Shown piece after piece: positions 5,075-64,000 of a stretch of 64,000 bases of DNA (its first letter is position 1; every line of letters begins with the position of its first letter). The stretch spans positions 62,001 through 126,000 of the IMG/VR virus record IMGVR_UViG_3300046810_000338. One strand, 5' to 3'. The stretch comes from a virus. The translations under genes and the position numbers were made by a program. Under the pieces are notes generated by a model. The model was not told the origin of the DNA. It saw only the letters and a list, made by a program, of their open reading frames with translations, and made no database searches.

Positions 5075-5503
5075 ATGGCTACTGGATACCCATCTCTTAC
5101 TGCTGAGGGTTTTATCTTTGCGGTCGATCGCAAGTGTGACCGGATTCTGATGAGCATGTTTGCAAGTGATGCTGGTCAATCGAACATGTTTGCAGGGTCT
5201 GTTACCAGTATTCAAAACATCATTTACCTGAACAGTGATGATGTCAATGCTGCTGGCACTGCTGTGGCCGCTGGCATTGAGCGCGTGCTGTCCCGATACT
5301 TTGATGGAGCCAACGTTCAAGGCGTCGTCACGGACATCGTAGACAAGCCTGGGCGAGTGGACATCAGTATTCAAGGCAGCGTTGTTCAGAACAACCGCCG
5401 CTATGACTTCGGTCGTATGCTGGAATCTGCCAACGGCATGATCCAGTCCATCATGAACAATCAAGGGGAAGTATTGTGGACGAACGTGCTGACGTACTCT
5501 TAG
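5075..5503 (+). CDS. Small hypothetical protein
   Basis: 142 residues from ATG 5075 (MATGYPSL); the in-frame ATG at 5042 is discarded because it overlaps the terminator tail and lacks a ribosome site, whereas TGAGGGTTT precedes 5075. The fold looks like alternating strands and helices with no recognised motif. It overlaps the next gene by 28 bases. Confidence 0.75.
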   Translation: MATGYPSLTAEGFIFAVDRKCDRILMSMFASDAGQSNMFAGSVTSIQNIIYLNSDDVNAAGTAVAAGIERVLSRYFDGANVQGVVTDIVDKPGRVDISIQGSVVQNNRRYDFGRMLESANGMIQSIMNNQGEVLWTNVLTYS

Positions 5504-24196: not shown

Positions 24197-24778
24197 ATGA
24201 GTAAACATAATGCAGGTGCGTTTGGTAGCCGCAAGCGTGCTCCAGCTTCCACAGTAGCCGTTCAAGGTAACACCCTGACGTTCGACCCAGATCCACGTCC
24301 GTACTTCGCCGACTACGCTTCCATGGCGTTGGACTGCGAGGCACTGATCACCAGCGCTGGCATGGTACTGCCGTTCGTGCAATCGGAACTCGTCGGCCAG
24401 GTTAACGCCGGTGCGTTGAACCAGGACATCCTGATCCTGAATACCCACACTGCTGCGTTCAAGGGTCGTTTGGCGATCCTGCGTGCTGATACCGAAGAAC
24501 TGCGTGCCCGCATCACCTACGCCGGGCAAGACCAGGTGTTGGAGCTGATGAACCACGCTGAGTTGTTCGAGATCTTCATGAACGACTACACCCGCGTGGC
24601 GATGTTGTCCATCGACAACGTGCTCGAACACTTCCGTAAACTGGGTCAGGACATTCCGTATGTCTGCCCATTCAGCCCAGGCTTCCGTCAGGCAGTCGGC
24701 AAGTTCCAAATGAGTTCCGAGCAGTTCGCCAAGGCGACTGCTCCGATCACCCTCGGCGAAGTTCTTCAAGGCGAGTAA
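24197..24778 (+). CDS. Hypothetical virion or assembly protein
   Basis: 193 residues, ATG behind AAGGAATTAGG. Strong codon bias indicates high expression. Basic N-terminus, then a helical body with no motif. It is 3 bases before the frameshift gene, so the two are co-transcribed; this pairing recalls tail-assembly chaperone cassettes but no direct homology is visible. Confidence 0.8.
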   Translation: MSKHNAGAFGSRKRAPASTVAVQGNTLTFDPDPRPYFADYASMALDCEALITSAGMVLPFVQSELVGQVNAGALNQDILILNTHTAAFKGRLAILRADTEELRARITYAGQDQVLELMNHAELFEIFMNDYTRVAMLSIDNVLEHFRKLGQDIPYVCPFSPGFRQAVGKFQMSSEQFAKATAPITLGEVLQGE

Positions 24779-24781
24779 GAC

Positions 24782-26398
24782 ATGAACGAAGAAAATGAAA
24801 TCTCTGGCAGCCCTTTGCCAGAGAGCGATTTGGATGTCGAGACCCCGGTACCCCAAGAGGTACTGGCAGCCGACGCTGCGGTAGCCCCAATTCCTACCCC
24901 TGTCGATCCATCGTTTGATAACGACTCGGACTTCGATCAGGAACCGGTCTCGGCTAATCCAGGCTCCAGCAGTGTCTTCTCTGACGATCACTGGACCCAG
25001 GACAACGTGCAGGGTAAAGACCCTATCACCAAGCCTCTGGCACCGGGTGTGGTTCCTCCAGCGGTGATTCGCATGCCGTCGATGTCGATGGCCGATACCC
25101 AACTGGTTATCACTGCGCTGGAACCTGTGGCTGCTCAGTTGTCGCCAGCCGGTCGTGAATGGGCACAGGTTGTTCAGGACTCCATCTCTTTCCTGCATGA
25201 AGACGGCCAGTTCTCCGACAGCTTGAAACGTGAAGGTTCTAAGTGGACCCAGGTCATCGAGCACGAAGGCGTGAAGATGACGGCATCCGTGCCGGTATCT
25301 GATAAGCCTGCTCCTGGCACCAAGCTGGTTGGTACCGACGCAGACATTCAGCTGTCTCGCGTGCTCGGCACTTATGCCCGCATGATGTTCCCGCTGTGGC
25401 ACAGTGGTCTGTGGTTGAACGTAGCCGTGCCGTCGGGTAACGAGCTGCACGATCTGGAAACTCAGATGGCCACAGCCAAGTACGACCTCGGCTGGATCTC
25501 CAAGGGCCTGGCGTATTCCAACACCATGGTCTTGCAGAACATCACGTTCCTGAACTTCATTCTGGACCGTGTCGTGGGCACCAACGTCGATGATTCGACG
25601 GTGGCAGGGCTCAAGCGATATATGCGCATCACTGACCTCAACCCACTGGCTGGTTGGATGTCGGCATCGGTCTACCCGTCTGGCTTCCCGCTGGAACGTC
25701 CTTGCTCGGCCAACCCGCTCAAGTGCCACGAAGTCACTCGCGATACCCTGCGCTTGACCAAGATCGTCTGGAACGACTCGGCGTCACTCTCGCCTGAACA
25801 ACTCAAACATATGCAGCCTCGCCTGGCCGGTCGTAAGAAAACCGCCGACGATATGCAGAAGTATCAAGACGGGTTCTCCCGCATTGGTGCACGGGTTGTG
25901 GAACTCAAGCCTGGCCTGAGCGTTCGTTTCCTGCCTCCGACCATCGAGCAGTATGAACAGTCTGGTTTCTCCTGGATCGATCAGATCGAGAAGAACGCCA
26001 ACTCCATGCTGGCGACTATGTCGGAAGCTGAGCTGAACAAGTACATGACCGACCAGTATCAGCTGACGGCTATGCGCCAATACGCTCACTGGGTTGAAGC
26101 CATTGTCTACCCAGACGACGTCGAAGTCGTTGACCGTGAATCCATCAACAACTCGCTCAAGTCGCTGTCTACCGAAGACGCGGTCGTCGAAGTGTTTATG
26201 GCGGCGGTACGTAAGTACATCGACGACTGCACCATCACTGTCGTTGCCATCAACAACTACACCTGTCCCAAGTGCAACAAGTCCCAAGCGGTGGAGAAGA
26301 AGAACCCTCGGCTTATTCCGATCGATGCGGTCCACACTTTTTTCACCCTCAGCGGCCTGAAGACACAAATTACTCTATCGAGAAATATGGCGTTCTAG
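24782..26398 (+). CDS. Large acidic-tailed protein, zero-frame product of a frameshift gene
   Basis: 538 residues in the zero frame. The first 110 residues are acidic, Pro/Ser-rich and probably disordered; the rest is folded. A CPKC knuckle (YTCPKCNKSQ) lies near residue 499, suggesting a zinc site of which only one pair is visible. At codons 519-521 (ACT TTT TTC) the sequence contains a T TTT TTC heptamer; zero-frame translation then adds only 17 more residues before TAG. A -1 shift would fuse 179 further residues for a 700-residue product. The function is not recognised. A missing T in the assembly would give the same picture. Confidence 0.85.
   Translation: MNEENEISGSPLPESDLDVETPVPQEVLAADAAVAPIPTPVDPSFDNDSDFDQEPVSANPGSSSVFSDDHWTQDNVQGKDPITKPLAPGVVPPAVIRMPSMSMADTQLVITALEPVAAQLSPAGREWAQVVQDSISFLHEDGQFSDSLKREGSKWTQVIEHEGVKMTASVPVSDKPAPGTKLVGTDADIQLSRVLGTYARMMFPLWHSGLWLNVAVPSGNELHDLETQMATAKYDLGWISKGLAYSNTMVLQNITFLNFILDRVVGTNVDDSTVAGLKRYMRITDLNPLAGWMSASVYPSGFPLERPCSANPLKCHEVTRDTLRLTKIVWNDSASLSPEQLKHMQPRLAGRKKTADDMQKYQDGFSRIGARVVELKPGLSVRFLPPTIEQYEQSGFSWIDQIEKNANSMLATMSEAELNKYMTDQYQLTAMRQYAHWVEAIVYPDDVEVVDRESINNSLKSLSTEDAVVEVFMAAVRKYIDDCTITVVAINNYTCPKCNKSQAVEKKNPRLIPIDAVHTFFTLSGLKTQITLSRNMAF
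26338..26344 (+). promoter_or_regulatory. Slippery heptamer for -1 ribosomal frameshifting
   Basis: T TTT TTC is in the correct phase for tandem P- and A-site slippage (codons Phe520 and Phe521). A small TCAG/CTGA stem lies at about 26352-26363, 7 bases downstream; it is weak, and any stronger stimulator was not identified by eye. Confidence 0.65.
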
Positions 26399-26883
26399 AG
26401 CACCCAGCCAAAGACAAGGTCATTAATACCTATCGTCACGTTAATGACCCCAACTTTGGTTTGGAGACAGATAGATTCGATGCCGAACTGGACCGCGTTA
26501 AATCAGTAATCAAAGATTCTGGTGAAAAGCTGGACTGGGTTGACAACGAGCTTATGATGCGGGCTATCTACGAGTCTGCATTCGGTATACGGAATCACTA
26601 CGGTCCGAAGGTCTCTCCGTTGGCTCCGGTCGCGGCCAACCCCAAGGAAGACTATCTGCCGTATTCTTCCAAGTACCGGGACCACGCTGTGTTCATCGAA
26701 GAGAAGGTGTTTGAGGCTACGGGCATGTCCATGCAGACATTCTTCGACAGACCTCGGGCAGACATCGAGATGGACTTTGCGCTGGTCAAGCAAAAGAACA
26801 AACGGCATGCTGCGGCGCTCAACGCTGCAACTAACCCTGGCGGTAAGCTTCCTCCGATACCTCCACTGCCACGCGGTAGATAA
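26344..26883 (+). CDS. -1 frame extension of the preceding gene
   Basis: 179 codons open in the -1 frame from the slip site to TAA. The reading from 26344 (HPQRPEDTNYSIEKYGVLEHP) is protein-like with normal phage codon use. Upstream in this frame the translation is a shadow of the zero-frame gene, there is no ATG or GTG near the junction, and the first internal ATG (in ELMMRAIYE) lacks a ribosome site. The extension is charged, helical, and ends in a Pro-rich basic tail. It is best read as the C-terminal part of a 700-residue fusion. Confidence 0.7.
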   Translation, partial: HPQRPEDTNYSIEKYGVLEHPAKDKVINTYRHVNDPNFGLETDRFDAELDRVKSVIKDSGEKLDWVDNELMMRAIYESAFGIRNHYGPKVSPLAPVAANPKEDYLPYSSKYRDHAVFIEEKVFEATGMSMQTFFDRPRADIEMDFALVKQKNKRHAAALNAATNPGGKLPPIPPLPRGR

Positions 26884-26891
26884 TGGGCATA

Positions 26892-26923
26892 CTCTCCCTC
26901 TTCCCCTAAAGGAAGAGGGAGAG
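26892..26923. terminator. Bidirectional terminator with 13-bp perfect stem
   Basis: CTCTCCCTCTTCC pairs with GGAAGAGGGAGAG around CCTAAA. The right flank has TTATG at 26927-26931, overlapping the stop codon of the minus-strand polymerase gene; the left flank has CATA at 26888-26891. Confidence 0.85.
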
Positions 26924-30067: not shown

Positions 30068-30529
30068 ATGGCTACGCTTAAACTCTCCCGTGCTAAATCG
30101 GCCGAACTGATCTCGGCTGTTAACTACCTGTTCTCGACCAACGGTGTCTCCAACGCTGACCGCACCCCAGCGGCTGAGTTGGTATTCGCTGAACTGATCG
30201 CCGTCACTCTGCCGTTGGCCAGTGAAGGTCAGAAGGCTGAAGACTTCTACCGTTCGACTCTGCTGGCGGGTGTCCGTGCGTTTCTGGATCAGCTGTGTGA
30301 AGTGGTCCAGATCAACCACGAACAATGCATGCTGGCAGTCTGGGGCGCTTACTCCTACCGTCAGTCGATCGTCGTGGTGAAGAATCTGTTCGACATTCGC
30401 CCTGACATTGGCCGCTACATCGGTAAGATGCCTCAGCGTCATGCTGACATCATCAAACGCTACCCAGTGCTGTCTGACAGCTACTGGGGCATCTCGGCAC
30501 TGATCTATGCCGATGGTGGCACCCTATGA
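30068..30529 (+). CDS. Hypothetical protein in the inner-body operon
   Basis: 153 residues from ATG 30068, behind AAGGAGCGCC; a longer reading from 30014 lies inside the previous gene. Helical throughout, no membrane segment, high-expression codon use. The stop overlaps the next start (ATGA). Probably a virion or assembly protein by context. Confidence 0.8.
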   Translation: MATLKLSRAKSAELISAVNYLFSTNGVSNADRTPAAELVFAELIAVTLPLASEGQKAEDFYRSTLLAGVRAFLDQLCEVVQINHEQCMLAVWGAYSYRQSIVVVKNLFDIRPDIGRYIGKMPQRHADIIKRYPVLSDSYWGISALIYADGGTL

Positions 30530-31854
30530 AAATGATGGCCCTGGAAGGGCTGGAAGCCGATCCAGCCATCATCTCATCGTCCATTGAGCGCATGCAGAAC
30601 GATCGTCTGGTGTGCCAATCCGATGTGGCTCCTTTCATCCAGCATTTCCCCATGAACATCTCCCTGGATAACTTCAGCGAAGAGCCTTCCGAGAAAGGCT
30701 TGGACATTGCCCTCGAAGGCATGTCCATGTTGTTCAAGGTCGCAGCCGGTGTTGCACTGGTAGGCGTTCTGGGTATCTGCATCTACAACTTCATCCGTAG
30801 CCGTCGTGCTGCCGAAACCATCGCAGAAGGTTCGGCGGTCACTGCTCGTTTGGGTAAGCTTACGCTGGAACTGGAACAAGACATCCATACCGCGCCTGGT
30901 TTCATTAACACCCGGACTCCTCTGTTGGGCAGCAATGAAATCCCTCACGGTCTGGGCCTGCACTTCAGTGGCGAAGTCAGCTACGCAGAATTCGCTGACA
31001 AGTTCTTCAGTGCTAAAGGCGTGGGTGCTATTGCCGGTATCAGTTCTGACCTGGCTATCAAGATCAACTATGGCGAGGTTCCAAGCGCCACCGATCAACT
31101 GATGGCTCCGATGAGCGACTACCTGGGCGATTTGGCTAAGCGGGTAACCGAACTGCGCAAGATCATTGCCGACATGCCTGGCGCGTTGAATGCCGGCCAC
31201 ATCGACAAGATCACCCAGCGGATCGTTGCAATCGATCTGAAGGTGCCTCGCGGTACAGTCCTGGGGTTGATCGAGCGTAACTTCGACAACCGCCTGCCGC
31301 CACCTCGTGGTAGCTTCCAGGCAGGCTCTGCTGCCATGTTTGAGGACCGGGTAGAAGCCTTGGCCAATTTGTATACCGAATTGTCCGAAGGTTCTCACCC
31401 CAACCAGAAAGGCGGCAACGCAGAAGAGAAAGCGACTACCGACTGGGTGTCTACCAACCTGTCTGGTCTGATTGGCCCGCTGGTGGATATCTCCACCCGC
31501 TGTGCCAAAGTTGGACTGTCTCCTTCTCTGTCCACCGGCCGCAGCATTGTGGCCGAATGTGAAGAGTTGAAGAAGAAGGTTGCAACCAGCGATTTCCCTG
31601 ATGCAGTGGATGCCGCGCTCAAGGTTGTACTGGAAGATGTCCGCATGGATTCTCTGGCTGCCATGAAACTGTTCGATGTGATCAACACCGAACAGCGACT
31701 GACGGCTAAGTGGGTTTCCTTTGTATTGCGCTGGACAGCAGAGCACGCCCGTGTGGTTGCACTGTTTACTCGCTCGGTATCTCCACCTGCTGCTGCCTCG
31801 TTGACCAAGAAGGCCGCTAACGCCCTCAAAGAAGCACAGAAACAGAAATTCTAA
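30526..31854 (+). CDS. Inner-body-like virion protein with one membrane-type segment
   Basis: 442 residues. A propeptide-like N-terminus contains E-rich motifs fitting the phiKZ prohead protease rule [S/A/G]-x-E (ALE6, ALE64). A hydrophobic segment at 68-91 is followed by RSRR, then a helical body. Two nearby proteins (31911, 35613) have the same layout: short N-terminus, LE/ME motif, hydrophobic helix, basic cap, helical body. phiKZ packs an inner body of such cleaved proteins within the capsid. The hydrophobic helix in an internal head protein is notable. Confidence 0.75.
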   Translation: MKMMALEGLEADPAIISSSIERMQNDRLVCQSDVAPFIQHFPMNISLDNFSEEPSEKGLDIALEGMSMLFKVAAGVALVGVLGICIYNFIRSRRAAETIAEGSAVTARLGKLTLELEQDIHTAPGFINTRTPLLGSNEIPHGLGLHFSGEVSYAEFADKFFSAKGVGAIAGISSDLAIKINYGEVPSATDQLMAPMSDYLGDLAKRVTELRKIIADMPGALNAGHIDKITQRIVAIDLKVPRGTVLGLIERNFDNRLPPPRGSFQAGSAAMFEDRVEALANLYTELSEGSHPNQKGGNAEEKATTDWVSTNLSGLIGPLVDISTRCAKVGLSPSLSTGRSIVAECEELKKKVATSDFPDAVDAALKVVLEDVRMDSLAAMKLFDVINTEQRLTAKWVSFVLRWTAEHARVVALFTRSVSPPAAASLTKKAANALKEAQKQKF

Positions 31855-31863
31855 ACCCCACTG

Positions 31864-31894
31864 CCCCCTACAGGAGAACGCTCCTTGTAGGGGG
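31864..31894 (+). terminator. Hairpin between virion genes
   Basis: CCCCCTACA plus GGAG pairs with CTCC plus TGTAGGGGG with a single bulged T, followed by TTATAAGGAG. It may attenuate rather than stop transcription, since the next ribosome site begins right after it. Confidence 0.65.
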
Positions 31895-31910
31895 TTATAA
31901 GGAGCTGGTA

Positions 31911-34900
31911 ATGGGCGACACAATTAACATTGATTCTCTGGCCAATGCCAGTGGGGCAGACTTGGCAAAATTCTTGGCTCAGAACAATCAAGTTCTGGCT
32001 GAAGTAACCCAACACGCCATCGACGTAAACATGCTGGGCGGTACCTCTCAGGCTCACGCACTGGGCTTTCAGGAATACCTTCCAGCCGACTTCTCTCTTG
32101 AATCGTTGTCTACCCATCTGTCCAAGAAGGGTTACACGATGGTTCAGGAATCTCTGGCTGCTGTTCTGCTGGTGGCCGGCGCAGCTGCAATCGTAGCAGG
32201 CGTAGGCATTCTGGCTTACAAGTTGATTCGTATGTCGATGGGTAAAGAGCCCAAGGCTTCCGAAGCACTCAAGCACGCCGAGGCTGCCAAGAAACTGGCA
32301 GCAATCATGACCAACCTGGACATGTCTCGCCTGCCGCCAGAGTTCCAAAAGCTGTTCACTGAATACGTTCAGGCCGAAACAGTTGCAGAACTGCGTAAGG
32401 GCTGGCCGGACAGTGACACTAACACCCGTGCTCTGGATGCGTTTATTCGTACCCGCCTGCAACAATCGAGCGCATCTGTTTATGCTGTTCGTATCCTGAC
32501 CCAATCGGACGCCCAGTTCTTGATGAACTCGGCTGGCAAACTGATCGACGCCATGGCCGATGGCCTGGCTCAGTTGGACAGTCGGTTCCTGCGTGTGGTT
32601 ATCGACAATCCGAAGATGTCTGGTCTGGAAGCATCGAAGCTTGCTGAATCCATCAGTGCATCGATGGGTACCAGTAACTTCGACAACGCTCAGAACTCGA
32701 TCATCGGCTGGGCTGCACACTACGGCGTTCAGACGGGCAATAGTGAGTTGCAAGACGCACTGCTGGCTTTCGAACAAGCCATGTTTACCCCAGCCTCTGC
32801 CGACCTCATCAATACGGTGGATCTGACCAAGAGCATGACCTTCTCTCCTCCGGCTAAACCCGTGGTTGAGAAACTGTACGCCAAGATCAAAGATCTGAAG
32901 AAACTGGGCGATCACCTGAAGCGTTCCGGCGATAACTTCAAACAGATCTCCAAGGACGCCTCCAACGACTTGACCACCCAGGTCAAGGCGGTGATTGATC
33001 AGGCTATGGCGGCGGTTGAACTGTCCGAACTGGTTACCCGGCTGGTGGACAAAGAAGTGGGTGCCATCCATCAAACCATTGGCGCTGTGGTTAACGGCGG
33101 CAAAGACATGCATGCAGGTATCATTGCAGTCATTGGCAAGATGGAAGACAAGGAAGAAGCGGCCCGTGTCAAACGCGAACTGTCTGCCTTGTTGGCCTCC
33201 GGCAAAGTGCCTACCATGCGCACTGAGGCGTTGGAAGACAATCGCCTTAGCCTGAATCAGGTTATGGTGTTGGAAGGTCGTAGCGGCATCCTGGACTTCC
33301 TCAAGCAGCTTGGCATCGTGCTGATGATCGGCATGGCTGTTGGCGTTCTGTATTCTGCCATCATGGCCATGTTCGGTGTAGCTTCCTTCTCGGCAGCGTG
33401 GGCAGGTGGTATTAACTACATCCTGGCCAACGGCAAGCGTGTAACGACCAAAGAAGCTTCTGATGCGTTGGCAGCGACGCTGAAGAACAACAGCGTTGGC
33501 CAGTACGGCGTTAACTCGATTACTCGCGGTAGCAACAACAACCTACCGTTTGTCGTCGACACCCGCATGATCGACAGTGGTTTCACCGTTGTGTCTGACG
33601 GCATCAAGAAAGCCATCGCTGCGTTCTCTGCCGGTGACTTCACAGGTAACCCTGAGCATGTCAATGCGGCAGTGATCCGAGCTTCCAACAACGGCAACCA
33701 TGTGTTGGACAATGCGATCAATACCCTCAAAGGTAAACTGATCGACTTGGGCCTGCCGATCAGCCGTAGCTCTGGCTCGGATGATCCAATCGCTGAGCTG
33801 CGAGCCAAAGAACACGAGTTCTCCAATCGCTGGTTCAATGGCAGCAACTGCGACTACTCGAAGTTCAACAACAACTTCACCACCAGTTGGATCGAGCGTT
33901 TCGATCCTAAGGCGCCTGAGAAGATCGAGAATTATGCCGAGCACATTGTGACCGACATGAAACGCTTTGCTAGCACCACTTCCGGTGTTAACAAAGAGAC
34001 CTTCAAAGAACTCAGCGACGAGGCTCTGGATGCCCACCACGACTTCACGCTGAAGATGGCCTACCTGGCTGCACTGTCCGGTGTTTACACCAAGATCACC
34101 AAGGCGGCTGTTAAAGACGTCCTGGGCGCCATCGGTGCACTGAAGTCGACCTTCCGTCATGGCAGTTCGTACAAGATGGTCGGCGAATCCCGTGATACGG
34201 ACTTCGACGAAGATGACGGCATGGATGCGTTGGATTACGACGACACCCACATTGACGGCATCATGGATCAGTCTGAAGTCATGGCCGATCTGAACGTCGA
34301 CGAGCAAGCTACTCTGGTTATGGAAAGCTGGGGCAAGCATGTTCAAACCGGGCTGATGGTGCTGGGTGCTTTGGCATTGGTTGGGGTGGGTGCTTTGATT
34401 CTGAAGTCCATCACCTCTGGCAAGTCCAAGCCGCATGCTGAGAAGGAACACTTCAAGGCTACGGCAGCAGGCATCGCTACCGGCAATGCGTTGGACCAAC
34501 TGGCCGACAAACTGGTTGAGAGCACCAACAACCTCAAAGCTGCGGTTCAGGACGAATCCAGCATTGTGGCCACCCAGGCGCAGGCTAAGGGTACACAAGA
34601 GTTCATCGGACGGGACGACGGGGCCAGCAACACTGCCGACAAACCTAACCCAGAAGGCCGTGCTGGTAATGACCATGCCGACATCATTTCCGATATCGAT
34701 GAACTGGGTGCTCTGGTTGAGAAGTGGGCCAACCTCAATTACGTAGGCCGCCTTAAACTCATCGGTCAGTCCACGGTGGTTTCCTATGGGGCCGTTGGTG
34801 CGTTGACCGCTGGTATGAACCCAGAGTTCAAGGACTTCCAGCAGAAAGGGTTGGAGGAAGTGGTCAAGTTTTTCACGTTCTGTGAGGACAAGATCTTTGG

Positions 34901-35567
34901 TCCAGTGAACGAAGCCCTGGCTTCTCACTTCCCACAAGACCGTTTGGCCGACATCCACGACGACGTTGTCGCAGCGATTGCTGACGCAATTGGACTTGGG
35001 GCAGTGCCTTCTGGTCTCACTGACGCTATGGCCGAAGAGATTGCCACGGTTACCAAACCTGCCGATGAGGCGGATTGGGCAGAGCTTGAGCGGGACATCA
35101 ATCCAAACGGCTACGGTTCTGGTGCAGATGACTACATGAAGCTGGTTAACGGTATCCAGAAAGGTATCGCCGAGACCACCGAGTTCGTCAACAAGGCCGA
35201 AGGGTCCCATGGTGATTTGGTTACTCGGGCAGCGGCTGAAGTCAAAGGTAGTCGTACCAAGGGGTCTTCGCTGCTCCTGCGTATCGATGAGTTCCGCCCT
35301 ACCTTCACCGAGGCGACTCGTTTCTTCCGGACCAGCATTCGAATGATGGAGGCACTCTGCACCTGTGTTGAGGAATCCATTCGTTTGCACCGCCGTGCTC
35401 AGCGTCAGGATGCTGCTGGCATCCAGGAGCAAGGTGAGAAGCTGGGTCGCATCAAAGGCAAGCTTCGTGCTAACAGCAACGACAAGTCCAAGTCTGGTGA
35501 CATCTTGGATAAGCTTGAAGAGATGCAAAAGGAATTGGAAGCCAGTCTGAAGAAGTCAGGTCTCTAA
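31911..35567 (+). CDS. Large inner-body-like protein with three membrane-type segments
   Basis: 1218 residues. Hydrophobic segments lie at about 82-106, 465-490 and 811-830. The region before the first, LPADFSLESL at about 58-67, matches LPGDFAMESF in the protein at 35613. The second and third are preceded by other Glu-containing motifs (for example VMESWG before the third). The spacing of three similar hydrophobic helices suggests a fusion of three paralogous modules. A highly acidic stretch (DTDFDEDDGMDALDYDD) lies near residue 765. Likely an abundant head-internal or injected protein. The C-terminal 100 residues are charged coiled-coil-like. Confidence 0.75.
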   Translation: MGDTINIDSLANASGADLAKFLAQNNQVLAEVTQHAIDVNMLGGTSQAHALGFQEYLPADFSLESLSTHLSKKGYTMVQESLAAVLLVAGAAAIVAGVGILAYKLIRMSMGKEPKASEALKHAEAAKKLAAIMTNLDMSRLPPEFQKLFTEYVQAETVAELRKGWPDSDTNTRALDAFIRTRLQQSSASVYAVRILTQSDAQFLMNSAGKLIDAMADGLAQLDSRFLRVVIDNPKMSGLEASKLAESISASMGTSNFDNAQNSIIGWAAHYGVQTGNSELQDALLAFEQAMFTPASADLINTVDLTKSMTFSPPAKPVVEKLYAKIKDLKKLGDHLKRSGDNFKQISKDASNDLTTQVKAVIDQAMAAVELSELVTRLVDKEVGAIHQTIGAVVNGGKDMHAGIIAVIGKMEDKEEAARVKRELSALLASGKVPTMRTEALEDNRLSLNQVMVLEGRSGILDFLKQLGIVLMIGMAVGVLYSAIMAMFGVASFSAAWAGGINYILANGKRVTTKEASDALAATLKNNSVGQYGVNSITRGSNNNLPFVVDTRMIDSGFTVVSDGIKKAIAAFSAGDFTGNPEHVNAAVIRASNNGNHVLDNAINTLKGKLIDLGLPISRSSGSDDPIAELRAKEHEFSNRWFNGSNCDYSKFNNNFTTSWIERFDPKAPEKIENYAEHIVTDMKRFASTTSGVNKETFKELSDEALDAHHDFTLKMAYLAALSGVYTKITKAAVKDVLGAIGALKSTFRHGSSYKMVGESRDTDFDEDDGMDALDYDDTHIDGIMDQSEVMADLNVDEQATLVMESWGKHVQTGLMVLGALALVGVGALILKSITSGKSKPHAEKEHFKATAAGIATGNALDQLADKLVESTNNLKAAVQDESSIVATQAQAKGTQEFIGRDDGASNTADKPNPEGRAGNDHADIISDIDELGALVEKWANLNYVGRLKLIGQSTVVSYGAVGALTAGMNPEFKDFQQKGLEEVVKFFTFCEDKIFGPVNEALASHFPQDRLADIHDDVVAAIADAIGLGAVPSGLTDAMAEEIATVTKPADEADWAELERDINPNGYGSGADDYMKLVNGIQKGIAETTEFVNKAEGSHGDLVTRAAAEVKGSRTKGSSLLLRIDEFRPTFTEATRFFRTSIRMMEALCTCVEESIRLHRRAQRQDAAGIQEQGEKLGRIKGKLRANSNDKSKSGDILDKLEEMQKELEASLKKSGL

Positions 35568-61684: not shown

Positions 61685-64000
61685 TCAGATGACCGGTTCA
61701 TCGTTCCCAGAGTCATCGTTCCCGCCATCGCTATTGCCGCTCCCAGAATCACCATTCCCAGAATCGGAATTGTCACCGCTGCTATCGCTGTCAGAACTGT
61801 CGCTATCTGAGTCGAAGTCGAAATCACCGCCATCGCCATCATCATCGTCATCGCCAAAGTCGAACCCGTCATCGTCATCACTTCCGTAGTCGTCGTTATA
61901 GTCATCACCGCCGCCGGTGCTACTGCCTTCGCCTTCTTCAGCCCCTTCAACACGGGCTGTGTCCATGCGCTCTTTGAGAGTCACCCACTCATTCTCGCTA
62001 ATGAGGGCAGAAGAGTAGAGCTTAAGGCCAACCACTTTAATGACCTTGTTCATGTCGTTGATGTTTTCCATCCCCTCATTGAACAAGATATTGCCGTAGT
62101 CTTCTGCTGTGCCGACTTTGAACATGTCGGTCAGTTGCGGCATGATGTTGTTTTCACGGCAGTAACGCAGCACCAGAGTGGACTTAACGCTGGCTTTAAC
62201 CAGAGTGACCCATTCATTACTGCTTGTGCCAACTGCTTGTGCGCCCAACACGTCGTCTGGCAGAATCAGGTCCAGCAGTTTCTCCAACGCATCGGAGTAT
62301 TCACCCAGTTCAGTCATGCGATTGCTCAGGCCAGTATCTGGCCGTGGCAGAGTGCAGGTGTAGATACTGAAGAAGATCTCGACGTATTTGTCGATACCCA
62401 CTGTAGCAACCTTCTCTTTACCACCCAGATCTTCAACGTACTGACCCACCACTTCACGCAACTGATCCATGATACCCTGGTGGTTGATCACGATCTTGAT
62501 GATCGTTTCACGGGTCAGGATATTGGTACGGTCCTGGATAATGATTGCGCGTTTGAGAGACAGTTCGTTACTGGTCGCAATCTTGGAGGAGAACTCAATC
62601 TGGTTAGACAGATCGACAATCTCTGGCGCCAAGCCATAGCCCATGGTTTGACGTTTGGCCAGGGATTCATCCATGGACAAATCGATCTCACGATACTGGA
62701 TATCACGAGGAACGATCTCAACTTTGGTCCCTGGGTAGTTATCACCCCCTTCCACGCTTACCGACAGGCCAGAGTCCTGAGCCATTTCGATCATGCGTTT
62801 AGGGTTGGAGGTAGCCCAAGGAATAGAGTTGCTACGACGACGTGCATACTCGTGGACGATCATCTCTTTGGTGCGAGACTTGTTAGGATCGTCTTCATCG
62901 ATCGTGATCTTCATGTCACGGTGATCGATCGAGTTACGGATCATGGTCTCAACGTTCATGAACAGCGTCAGCGCGCGGATAGAGGAAAGGATCTTGTTAT
63001 CCTCCATCAGAGAGCGACCGGTGCCGTTGTCGTTGAAGCGATACGCCCAGTAGACCACCATGTCGGCTGGGATGTAAACCAGACGAGTTTGCTTACCCGA
63101 CAGAGCCCGCTCAAACATCAGGTCGTATGCCATCTGCTGACGACTGACGGTGACATTACCCACACTGCCTGCCATGAAGCGGCTTTCAATGTCCCGTGCT
63201 GCCATGTCGCGAAATGCCATGGACGCCTGTTGAGACATCTGTTGAGTGGCGTAGCCGTCTTCATCGCGCAGCTGACTGGCAGCAGCGCTCAACATACCAG
63301 ACAGTGCAGAGCGGTTGTTAAACACGCCGGCATTGATGGTGTTGAAGTAGTCGGTACGCGCCGTCCTGGAGATCATGCTACCGAATTCATCCAGGATAGC
63401 AATGAACCCGATGGGCTTGTCTGGCTTACCCGGTGGGTGAATCGCCATCAGTGCTTCGGTGGAACCTGGCTTGATCAGAGGACCACCAATCGTTTCACGA
63501 CTGGCTTCTTCTTGACGGTTCAACATGAAGATCTCTTCGGCGCGTAGGTTGCCGTTGTGATAAATGTCTTCAATGTTACGGTAGGAGTTACCACCCAGAC
63601 CTTCCAGCACCATGTTCTGCTTGGCAGTCATGGCAGACTGGGTGATGTCTTCTAACTTCATCATCATCGGGTTGTCGTAAATCTCTGGAGACACCCAACC
63701 CTTGCATTTAGTAAAGACACCACACTGCATAACCGGCAGTGGCTGGGTTGGAATAACCAGTTCCGAATTGACGTCATTGAGCATGGACTCAAGTGTCATC
63801 TTGCGGGCAGTAGGTGTGGCGCTTGGAGCGCCCATGTAGCCAACTGGCTTGCCGATGTTCTTGAGGTCGGTAGATTTACGGTACTCTTCCAGAGCAACCT
63901 TCTTACCAGTACGGCCGTTGATCAGGTCGTCCAGCGAGTTTTCTGGGATGATAAGCGTAACGTCGGCGCCTTCCACGAAAAGAGCTTTACGCAATTTATC
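61685..64000 (-). CDS. Portal protein (phiKZ gp129-like), 5' end outside the window
   Basis: 771 residues are visible and the frame is open at the right edge (an in-frame TTG at 63994 is not the start). The body is helical with typical portal features: a long central region with conserved-looking aromatic and basic segments (LVYIPADMVVYWAYRFN, then SLMEDNKILSSIRAL). The last 90 residues are an extreme Asp/Ser/Gly tail (blocks of DDDD and SDSDSSDSDSSG). Gene order (capsid, nvRNAP beta N-terminal, portal) matches phiKZ 120, 123 and 129. The portal forms the dodecameric DNA channel at one capsid vertex. Confidence 0.8.
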   Translation of the reverse strand, partial: DKLRKALFVEGADVTLIIPENSLDDLINGRTGKKVALEEYRKSTDLKNIGKPVGYMGAPSATPTARKMTLESMLNDVNSELVIPTQPLPVMQCGVFTKCKGWVSPEIYDNPMMMKLEDITQSAMTAKQNMVLEGLGGNSYRNIEDIYHNGNLRAEEIFMLNRQEEASRETIGGPLIKPGSTEALMAIHPPGKPDKPIGFIAILDEFGSMISRTARTDYFNTINAGVFNNRSALSGMLSAAASQLRDEDGYATQQMSQQASMAFRDMAARDIESRFMAGSVGNVTVSRQQMAYDLMFERALSGKQTRLVYIPADMVVYWAYRFNDNGTGRSLMEDNKILSSIRALTLFMNVETMIRNSIDHRDMKITIDEDDPNKSRTKEMIVHEYARRRSNSIPWATSNPKRMIEMAQDSGLSVSVEGGDNYPGTKVEIVPRDIQYREIDLSMDESLAKRQTMGYGLAPEIVDLSNQIEFSSKIATSNELSLKRAIIIQDRTNILTRETIIKIVINHQGIMDQLREVVGQYVEDLGGKEKVATVGIDKYVEIFFSIYTCTLPRPDTGLSNRMTELGEYSDALEKLLDLILPDDVLGAQAVGTSSNEWVTLVKASVKSTLVLRYCRENNIMPQLTDMFKVGTAEDYGNILFNEGMENINDMNKVIKVVGLKLYSSALISENEWVTLKERMDTARVEGAEEGEGSSTGGGDDYNDDYGSDDDDGFDFGDDDDDGDGGDFDFDSDSDSSDSDSSGDNSDSGNGDSGSGNSDGGNDDSGNDEPVI

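Follow-up and report, generated by a model that had tools for sequence, protein, structure and literature searches.

Frameshifted tail assembly chaperones (TAC) are exemplified by lambda gpG/gpGT, a TAC-N/TAC-NC pair (Xu et al. 2004, as cited in PMC2147016 and PMC10885494). Phage Adele (Vandenendeviridae/Andersonviridae) has a chaperone with a GTTTTT motif whose gene adjoins that of the tape measure; the 2025 paper on it refers to Vladimirov et al. 2022 for poly-T frameshift signals as a known feature of T4-like chaperone genes (PMC12846349). In T4 itself, gp26 and gp51 are hub assembly chaperones (PMC3004832). Here we describe a locus at positions 24782-26883 of a 64,000-nucleotide stretch of viral DNA, hereafter the window, which corresponds to positions 62,001 to 126,000 of the 228,499-base virus record IMGVR_UViG_3300046810_000338 (IMG/VR). 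The locus consists of a gene homologous to gp077 of phage phiKZ, followed in the -1 frame by a second open reading frame (ORF). Given a phased slippery site, an open -1 frame, the conservation of both, dual-coding selection and a gp26-like C-terminal profile and fold, we consider it highly probable that the locus undergoes a -1 programmed ribosomal frameshift, which would probably yield a tail/hub assembly chaperone related to T4 gp26/gp51 in two forms, short and long.

As in lambda gpG/gpGT, the second ORF is adjacent to the first, open in the -1 frame and devoid of a start of its own. Unlike in lambda, the first ORF is not small (500-700 residues) and no tape-measure gene adjoins it. In the Adele chaperone, too, a poly-T motif where TAC-N ends is the site of a -1 frameshift, and the argument from conservation by which it was recognised is the one used here. 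The phage families are different, and the Adele gene lies beside the tape measure whereas the phiKZ-type locus does not.

The 0-frame gene (24782-26398, + strand, as are its parts and the -1 extension) encodes a short product of 538 residues, homologous to phiKZ gp077, phiPA3 gp074, 201phi2-1 gp136 and EL gp047 (PHROG_4585; 23-52% identity to relatives) and matching 208 records of the phage collection. Its junction region reads GTC CAC ACT TTT TTC ACC CTC, with the slippery heptamer T TTT TTC at 26338-26344 phased to the 0 frame; the TTT and TTC codons specify Phe520 and Phe521. Seventeen sense codons separate the heptamer from the 0-frame TAG at 26396-26398, and the coordinates agree exactly with the position given in a preliminary description of this DNA. 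The -1 frame extension (26344-26883) comprises 179 codons from CAC at 26344 to the TAA at 26881-26883. As that description had proposed, the predicted fusion is therefore 521 + 179 = 700 residues long, with the first 521 residues common to both products and a predicted junction of ...HTFF-HPQRPED. The extension, present only in the 700-residue fusion, is homologous to a small 'hypothetical' ORF found just downstream in relatives, phiKZ 076.4 and phiPA3 gp073 (PHROG_12109). It had also been noted that this frame lacks a start of its own near the junction. The nearest -1-frame starts in the window are a GTG at 26272, upstream, and a TTG downstream within a conserved HxxxFG motif, and neither position is conserved among relatives.

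The site was compared across 94 loci (designated by L numbers), namely the window, 12 phages and 73 viral contigs (86 in all), followed by 8 very distant phages, including SPFM17, PDCC-1, PCH45 and FBKp24. A phased N-TTT-TTN lies close to the end of the gp077 gene in 85 of the first 86 loci and in all 8 distant phages (93/94), and not one of the 94 loci encodes the whole protein in a single frame. The site corresponds to FF(T)L in the 0 frame and typically to FF(Y/H)PxxPE in the -1 frame, which continues into the second protein. Many of the phages and contigs that carry it, phiKZ, phiPA3 and Goslar among them, were sequenced independently, and the length of the run varies between them: it counts 6-9 T in 85 loci, many of them with 8-9, and 18 loci including the window have only six. 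The base preceding the two codons (X) is T in 60, G in 9 and A in 8 of the 77 distinct loci. After the site, the -1 frame is homologous among relatives and open, with interruptions in L011 and L057.

Three of these loci deserve a separate mention. The sole exception to the phased site is L043 (about 5400-5452), with five T's (C GTT TTT A), an open -1 frame and a domain of normal length; it may have a weaker site, slip differently or contain a sequence error. In L011 (4197-4379) and L057 the -1 frame is interrupted about 50-60 codons past the site. These interruptions are possibly sequencing errors; RVTF4 shows what resembles a small indel relative to its near relatives.

The frameshift is annotated in none of the records examined. 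In many relatives the -1 part appears as a 'hypothetical' ORF of its own, whose annotated start is usually internal and wrong. The annotated starts vary among phages (4398 in L003, 4257 in L007, 4254 in L010, and others) and clip the N-terminal part of the -1 domain. The frameshift has thus been hidden by these wrong starts.

Codon usage at the site departs strongly from that of the surrounding gene. The first Phe is encoded by TTT in all 77 distinct loci, and elsewhere in the same genes TTC prevails (321 TTT, 803 TTC); the log10P of this bias is -22.8 for 39 lineages with one representative each (<50% identity). No other phased TTTTT occurs in 37,985 codons of these genes. The phased site therefore far exceeds chance. 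The overlap read in both frames (26345-26398) was assessed by comparison with L013, the nearest relative of the window (51% protein identity). From the heptamer to the 0-frame stop the two DNAs are 86% identical, against 55% upstream and 58% downstream, and this is the most conserved 58-nucleotide stretch of the locus. Moreover, within close groups, where pairs are not independent, changes before the site favour the third position of the 0 frame (565:309:1498 for positions 1:2:3), those after the 0-frame stop favour the third position of the -1 frame (49:182:91), and substitutions between the site and the stop are suppressed and mixed. These patterns indicate that the -1 frame is coding and that the overlap is under dual-coding selection.

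Other origins of the fusion, or of the second ORF, have to be weighed against this conservation. Homopolymers are error-prone and the window is a single metagenomic virus record, so that one T lost from the run of a single-frame gene, the alternative raised in the preliminary description, deserved attention. The same arrangement in 93 of 94 loci, many sequenced independently and with different run lengths, refutes this alternative, and its probability is negligible; the reading as a programmed -1 frameshift put forward in that description is upheld by the same 93 loci that keep the phased run and by the lack of any single-frame locus. Transcriptional slippage, in which the phage RNA polymerase would insert one extra U on the T run and the longer mRNA would be read in one frame, would yield an identical fusion. 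The run of 6-9 T, often 8-9, would suit it, and the polymerases of phiKZ-type phages are unusual. However, the 18 loci with six T's, the window among them, have runs shorter than those known to slip with bacterial polymerase, and the run is always phased so that TTT TTN forms the P- and A-site codons, a phase for which slippage would have no need; the A/G TTT TTT group keeps exactly these two codons. A ribosomal slip is strongly favoured by these features, and the transcriptional route appears improbable. It is even less probable, indeed very unlikely, that two separate proteins are made, with the downstream ORF starting at its own codon through reinitiation or coupling. Records annotate it in this way, and in Cygsa01, a T4-like phage, gp26 and gp51 meet at a TAATG junction. 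Yet the candidate starts are not conserved in position, usually fall inside the conserved HxxxFG region and have no conserved ribosome-binding site, and conservation of the -1 reading sets in at the heptamer itself (FF[YH]PxxPE), ahead of any start. Recoding at this locus is supported as well as sequence alone permits. A +1 shift was also considered and rejected, the +1 frame being closed near the junction in most loci.

In the proposed mechanism, most ribosomes would end at the 0-frame stop and release the 538-residue protein. A fraction of them, with tRNA-Phe in the P and A sites on TTT TTC, would slip back by one base on the T run and read the -1 frame, giving the 700-residue protein with its extra C-terminal domain. 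The two products would correspond to TAC-N (short) and TAC-NC (long), and how much of each is made would depend on the efficiency of the slip. From the observations above we infer the ribosomal nature of the slip, its efficiency and the function in assembly.

The nature of the 0-frame protein was approached by structure prediction and profile comparison. The AlphaFold2 model (48 homologs) is confident, with a predicted local distance difference test (pLDDT) score of 82.9 and a predicted template modelling (pTM) score of 0.81. The acidic N-terminus (residues 1-78; 24782-25015) is predicted to be disordered, with pLDDT <50 over residues 1-48 and 52-78, in agreement with what had been read from the letters. 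A Foldseek search with this model retrieved proteins of the same group first, and then T4-like proteins labelled 'Baseplate hub assembly protein' (E 1.2e-4 and 7.4e-4, prob 1.00). By hhalign, residues 370-524 align to the T4 gp26 family with 80.8-89.6% probability (E 1.3e-5 to 1.9e-6; reversed control 0.14%). The alignment includes CPxC and pairs the FF of both slip sites. With a smaller gp26 alignment the probability was only 21.6%, and it rose with the fuller set.

Two Cys pairs mark the protein: C308/C315 (CX6C; 25703-25726), the first pair of a putative zinc site, which covaries with C495/C498, and C495-P-K-C498 itself (26264-26275), within the stretch aligned to the gp26 family. Both pairs are present in 83 loci and both are absent in 11, the single Cys scored in L005 falling outside the Cys motif. 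Their joint presence or absence is a sign of one putative four-Cys metal site. The CPKC knuckle of the preliminary description is thus present, though not as a lone knuckle, and would form half of a site made of C308, C315, C495 and C498.

The same description had likened the locus to tail-assembly chaperone genes as a mere analogy; profile and fold suggest that it encodes an actual, remote chaperone of the T4 gp26 type. A short and a long product sharing their N-terminal part through a 3'-end frameshift, the mark of TAC-N/TAC-NC pairs, are predicted here from the sequence. Since the Pfam cut-off is not reached and the gene does not lie next to a tape-measure gene, the pair is regarded as a relative that would work like TAC-N/TAC-NC rather than as a certified member. 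Churi gp256, a homolog of phiKZ gp077, has been classed among the non-structural proteins (PMC11849849), which is what one would expect of a chaperone. The 0-frame/-1 pair most likely acts as a tail/hub assembly chaperone of gp26 type in a short and a long version, extended at the N-terminus and encoded next to genes of RNA polymerase subunits, far from those of the tail.

Several results weigh against a frameshifted chaperone. A search for a stimulatory RNA structure in the window found none (z 0.46 and -0.35), compensatory changes are all but absent from the consensus folds of two clades, and internal Shine-Dalgarno sequences are not enriched (observed mean -2.3 versus -2.8 kcal/mol in shuffled sequences). 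In 17 of the 77 distinct loci X is A or G, which makes P-site re-pairing imperfect, and L043 has only its five T's. A Pfam scan for PF12322 with 48 members of the group gave no match and only chance hits, with T4 gp26 (216 bits) and gp51 (178 bits) as positive references, and fold and sequence searches of solved structures in the Protein Data Bank (PDB) gave no match. The -1 domain, predicted to be small and helical, aligns with the C-terminus of gp51 at the same motif, weakly, with 1.4-5.2% probability; this similarity is only suggestive, and a fold search with the -1 domain gave good E-values only for relatives of the same group. Finally, no tape-measure gene lies beside the locus in the window or in the annotated relatives. 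As to the first of these points, simple T-run sites may not need a stimulatory element; as to the A/G TTT TTT variants, established work on frameshift sites suggests tolerance of imperfect P-site re-pairing.

Even with a real frameshift, the pair might serve not the tail but the head or the neighbouring virion RNA polymerase. The locus lies next to RNA polymerase beta subunit genes throughout the group, phiKZ gp079/080 are labelled structural head proteins in the record and no tail gene is adjacent, all of which speaks for such a role. Against it stand the C-terminal profile and fold, which match T4 gp26 and place the slip site at the equivalent residue, and the generally scattered gene order of phiKZ-type phages. 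We regard a role outside the tail as unlikely, if a good deal less so than transcriptional slippage.

The hub chaperone reading leads back to T4, whose gp26 and gp51 are paralogs (PF12322). The likeness to the T4 pair lies in the C-terminal 150 or so residues, which align by profile, in two Cys pairs, in the FF before the end that coincides with the slip site, and in a long form carrying an extra C-terminal domain. T4 has two paralogous genes as opposed to one frameshifting gene here, and gp077 has some 370 residues ahead of the aligned part and stays below the Pfam threshold. In cyanophage-type loci, gp26 ends with T TTT TTC, one codon and the stop in 80 of 80 cases (L101-L180, L092 and L088 among the loci noted), and the -1 frame is a short 'gp51' at full length in 79 of them and short in L122. 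Annotation there treats gp51 as a truncated gene in its own right. The heptamer of the Kyanoviridae gp26/'gp51' is identical to that of the window, and its -1 frame encodes the gp51 C-terminus. The differences are that a single codon separates slip from stop and that the -1 domain has about 60 residues, versus about 170 in the phiKZ type. Desulfovibrio phage 7757 has the same gp26/gp51 arrangement, and a scan of viral contigs with the gp26 of the Desulfovibrio phage gave no relatives. In Pseudomonas phage Cygsa01 (L089, 2072-2982), a TAATG stop/start junction takes the place of the slippery site between gp26 and gp51, which suggests a different solution within the same family.

Cyanophage gp51 has been reported at only about 20% of its usual length (PMC3037559). 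The frameshift explains this shortness, as it would let gp26 provide the rest of the protein. As poly-T signals have already been stated for T4-like chaperone genes, the cyanophage part is probably not new. Vladimirov et al. 2022 reportedly deals with T4-like chaperones and probably covers the cyanophage frameshift. Tentatively, and with somewhat less than even confidence, we suggest that an ancient hub chaperone gene of gp26 type with a poly-T frameshift predates the split between phiKZ-type and T4-like phages, that T4 26/51 are a derived duplication replacing the frameshift, and that in the phiKZ type the gene was extended by a large N-terminal part and relocated to the RNA polymerase locus.

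Frameshifted chaperones are already known; no published report of the phiKZ-type frameshift was found in the open-access library searched. In every phiKZ-type phage examined, including the models phiKZ and phiPA3, the frameshift would join two 'hypothetical' genes into one fusion missed by standard annotation. It gives gp077 a functional lead, as a putative tail/hub assembly chaperone, in a group of phages about whose tail assembly little is understood, and may connect frameshifted chaperones with the two-gene system of T4 in evolution.

The neighbours of the locus are an RNA polymerase beta subunit gene, a DNA polymerase gene and genes without assigned function. Directly upstream, a gene of 193 residues (24197-24778, + strand) has no Pfam or PHROG hit at threshold. 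It occupies the position of phiKZ gp078, which precedes gp077 in all annotated relatives viewed, and as a conserved neighbour it possibly belongs to the same assembly unit. Directly past the -1 stop, between it and the convergent DNA polymerase gene, lies a perfect 13-base inverted repeat, CTCTCCCTCTTCC...GGAAGAGGGAGAG (26892-26923). This terminator-like element, read directly from the sequence, fits a transcription unit that ends with the -1 frame. Elsewhere in the window, at 30526-35567, two genes without a PHROG match (442 and 1218 residues) encode proteins with hydrophobic segments.
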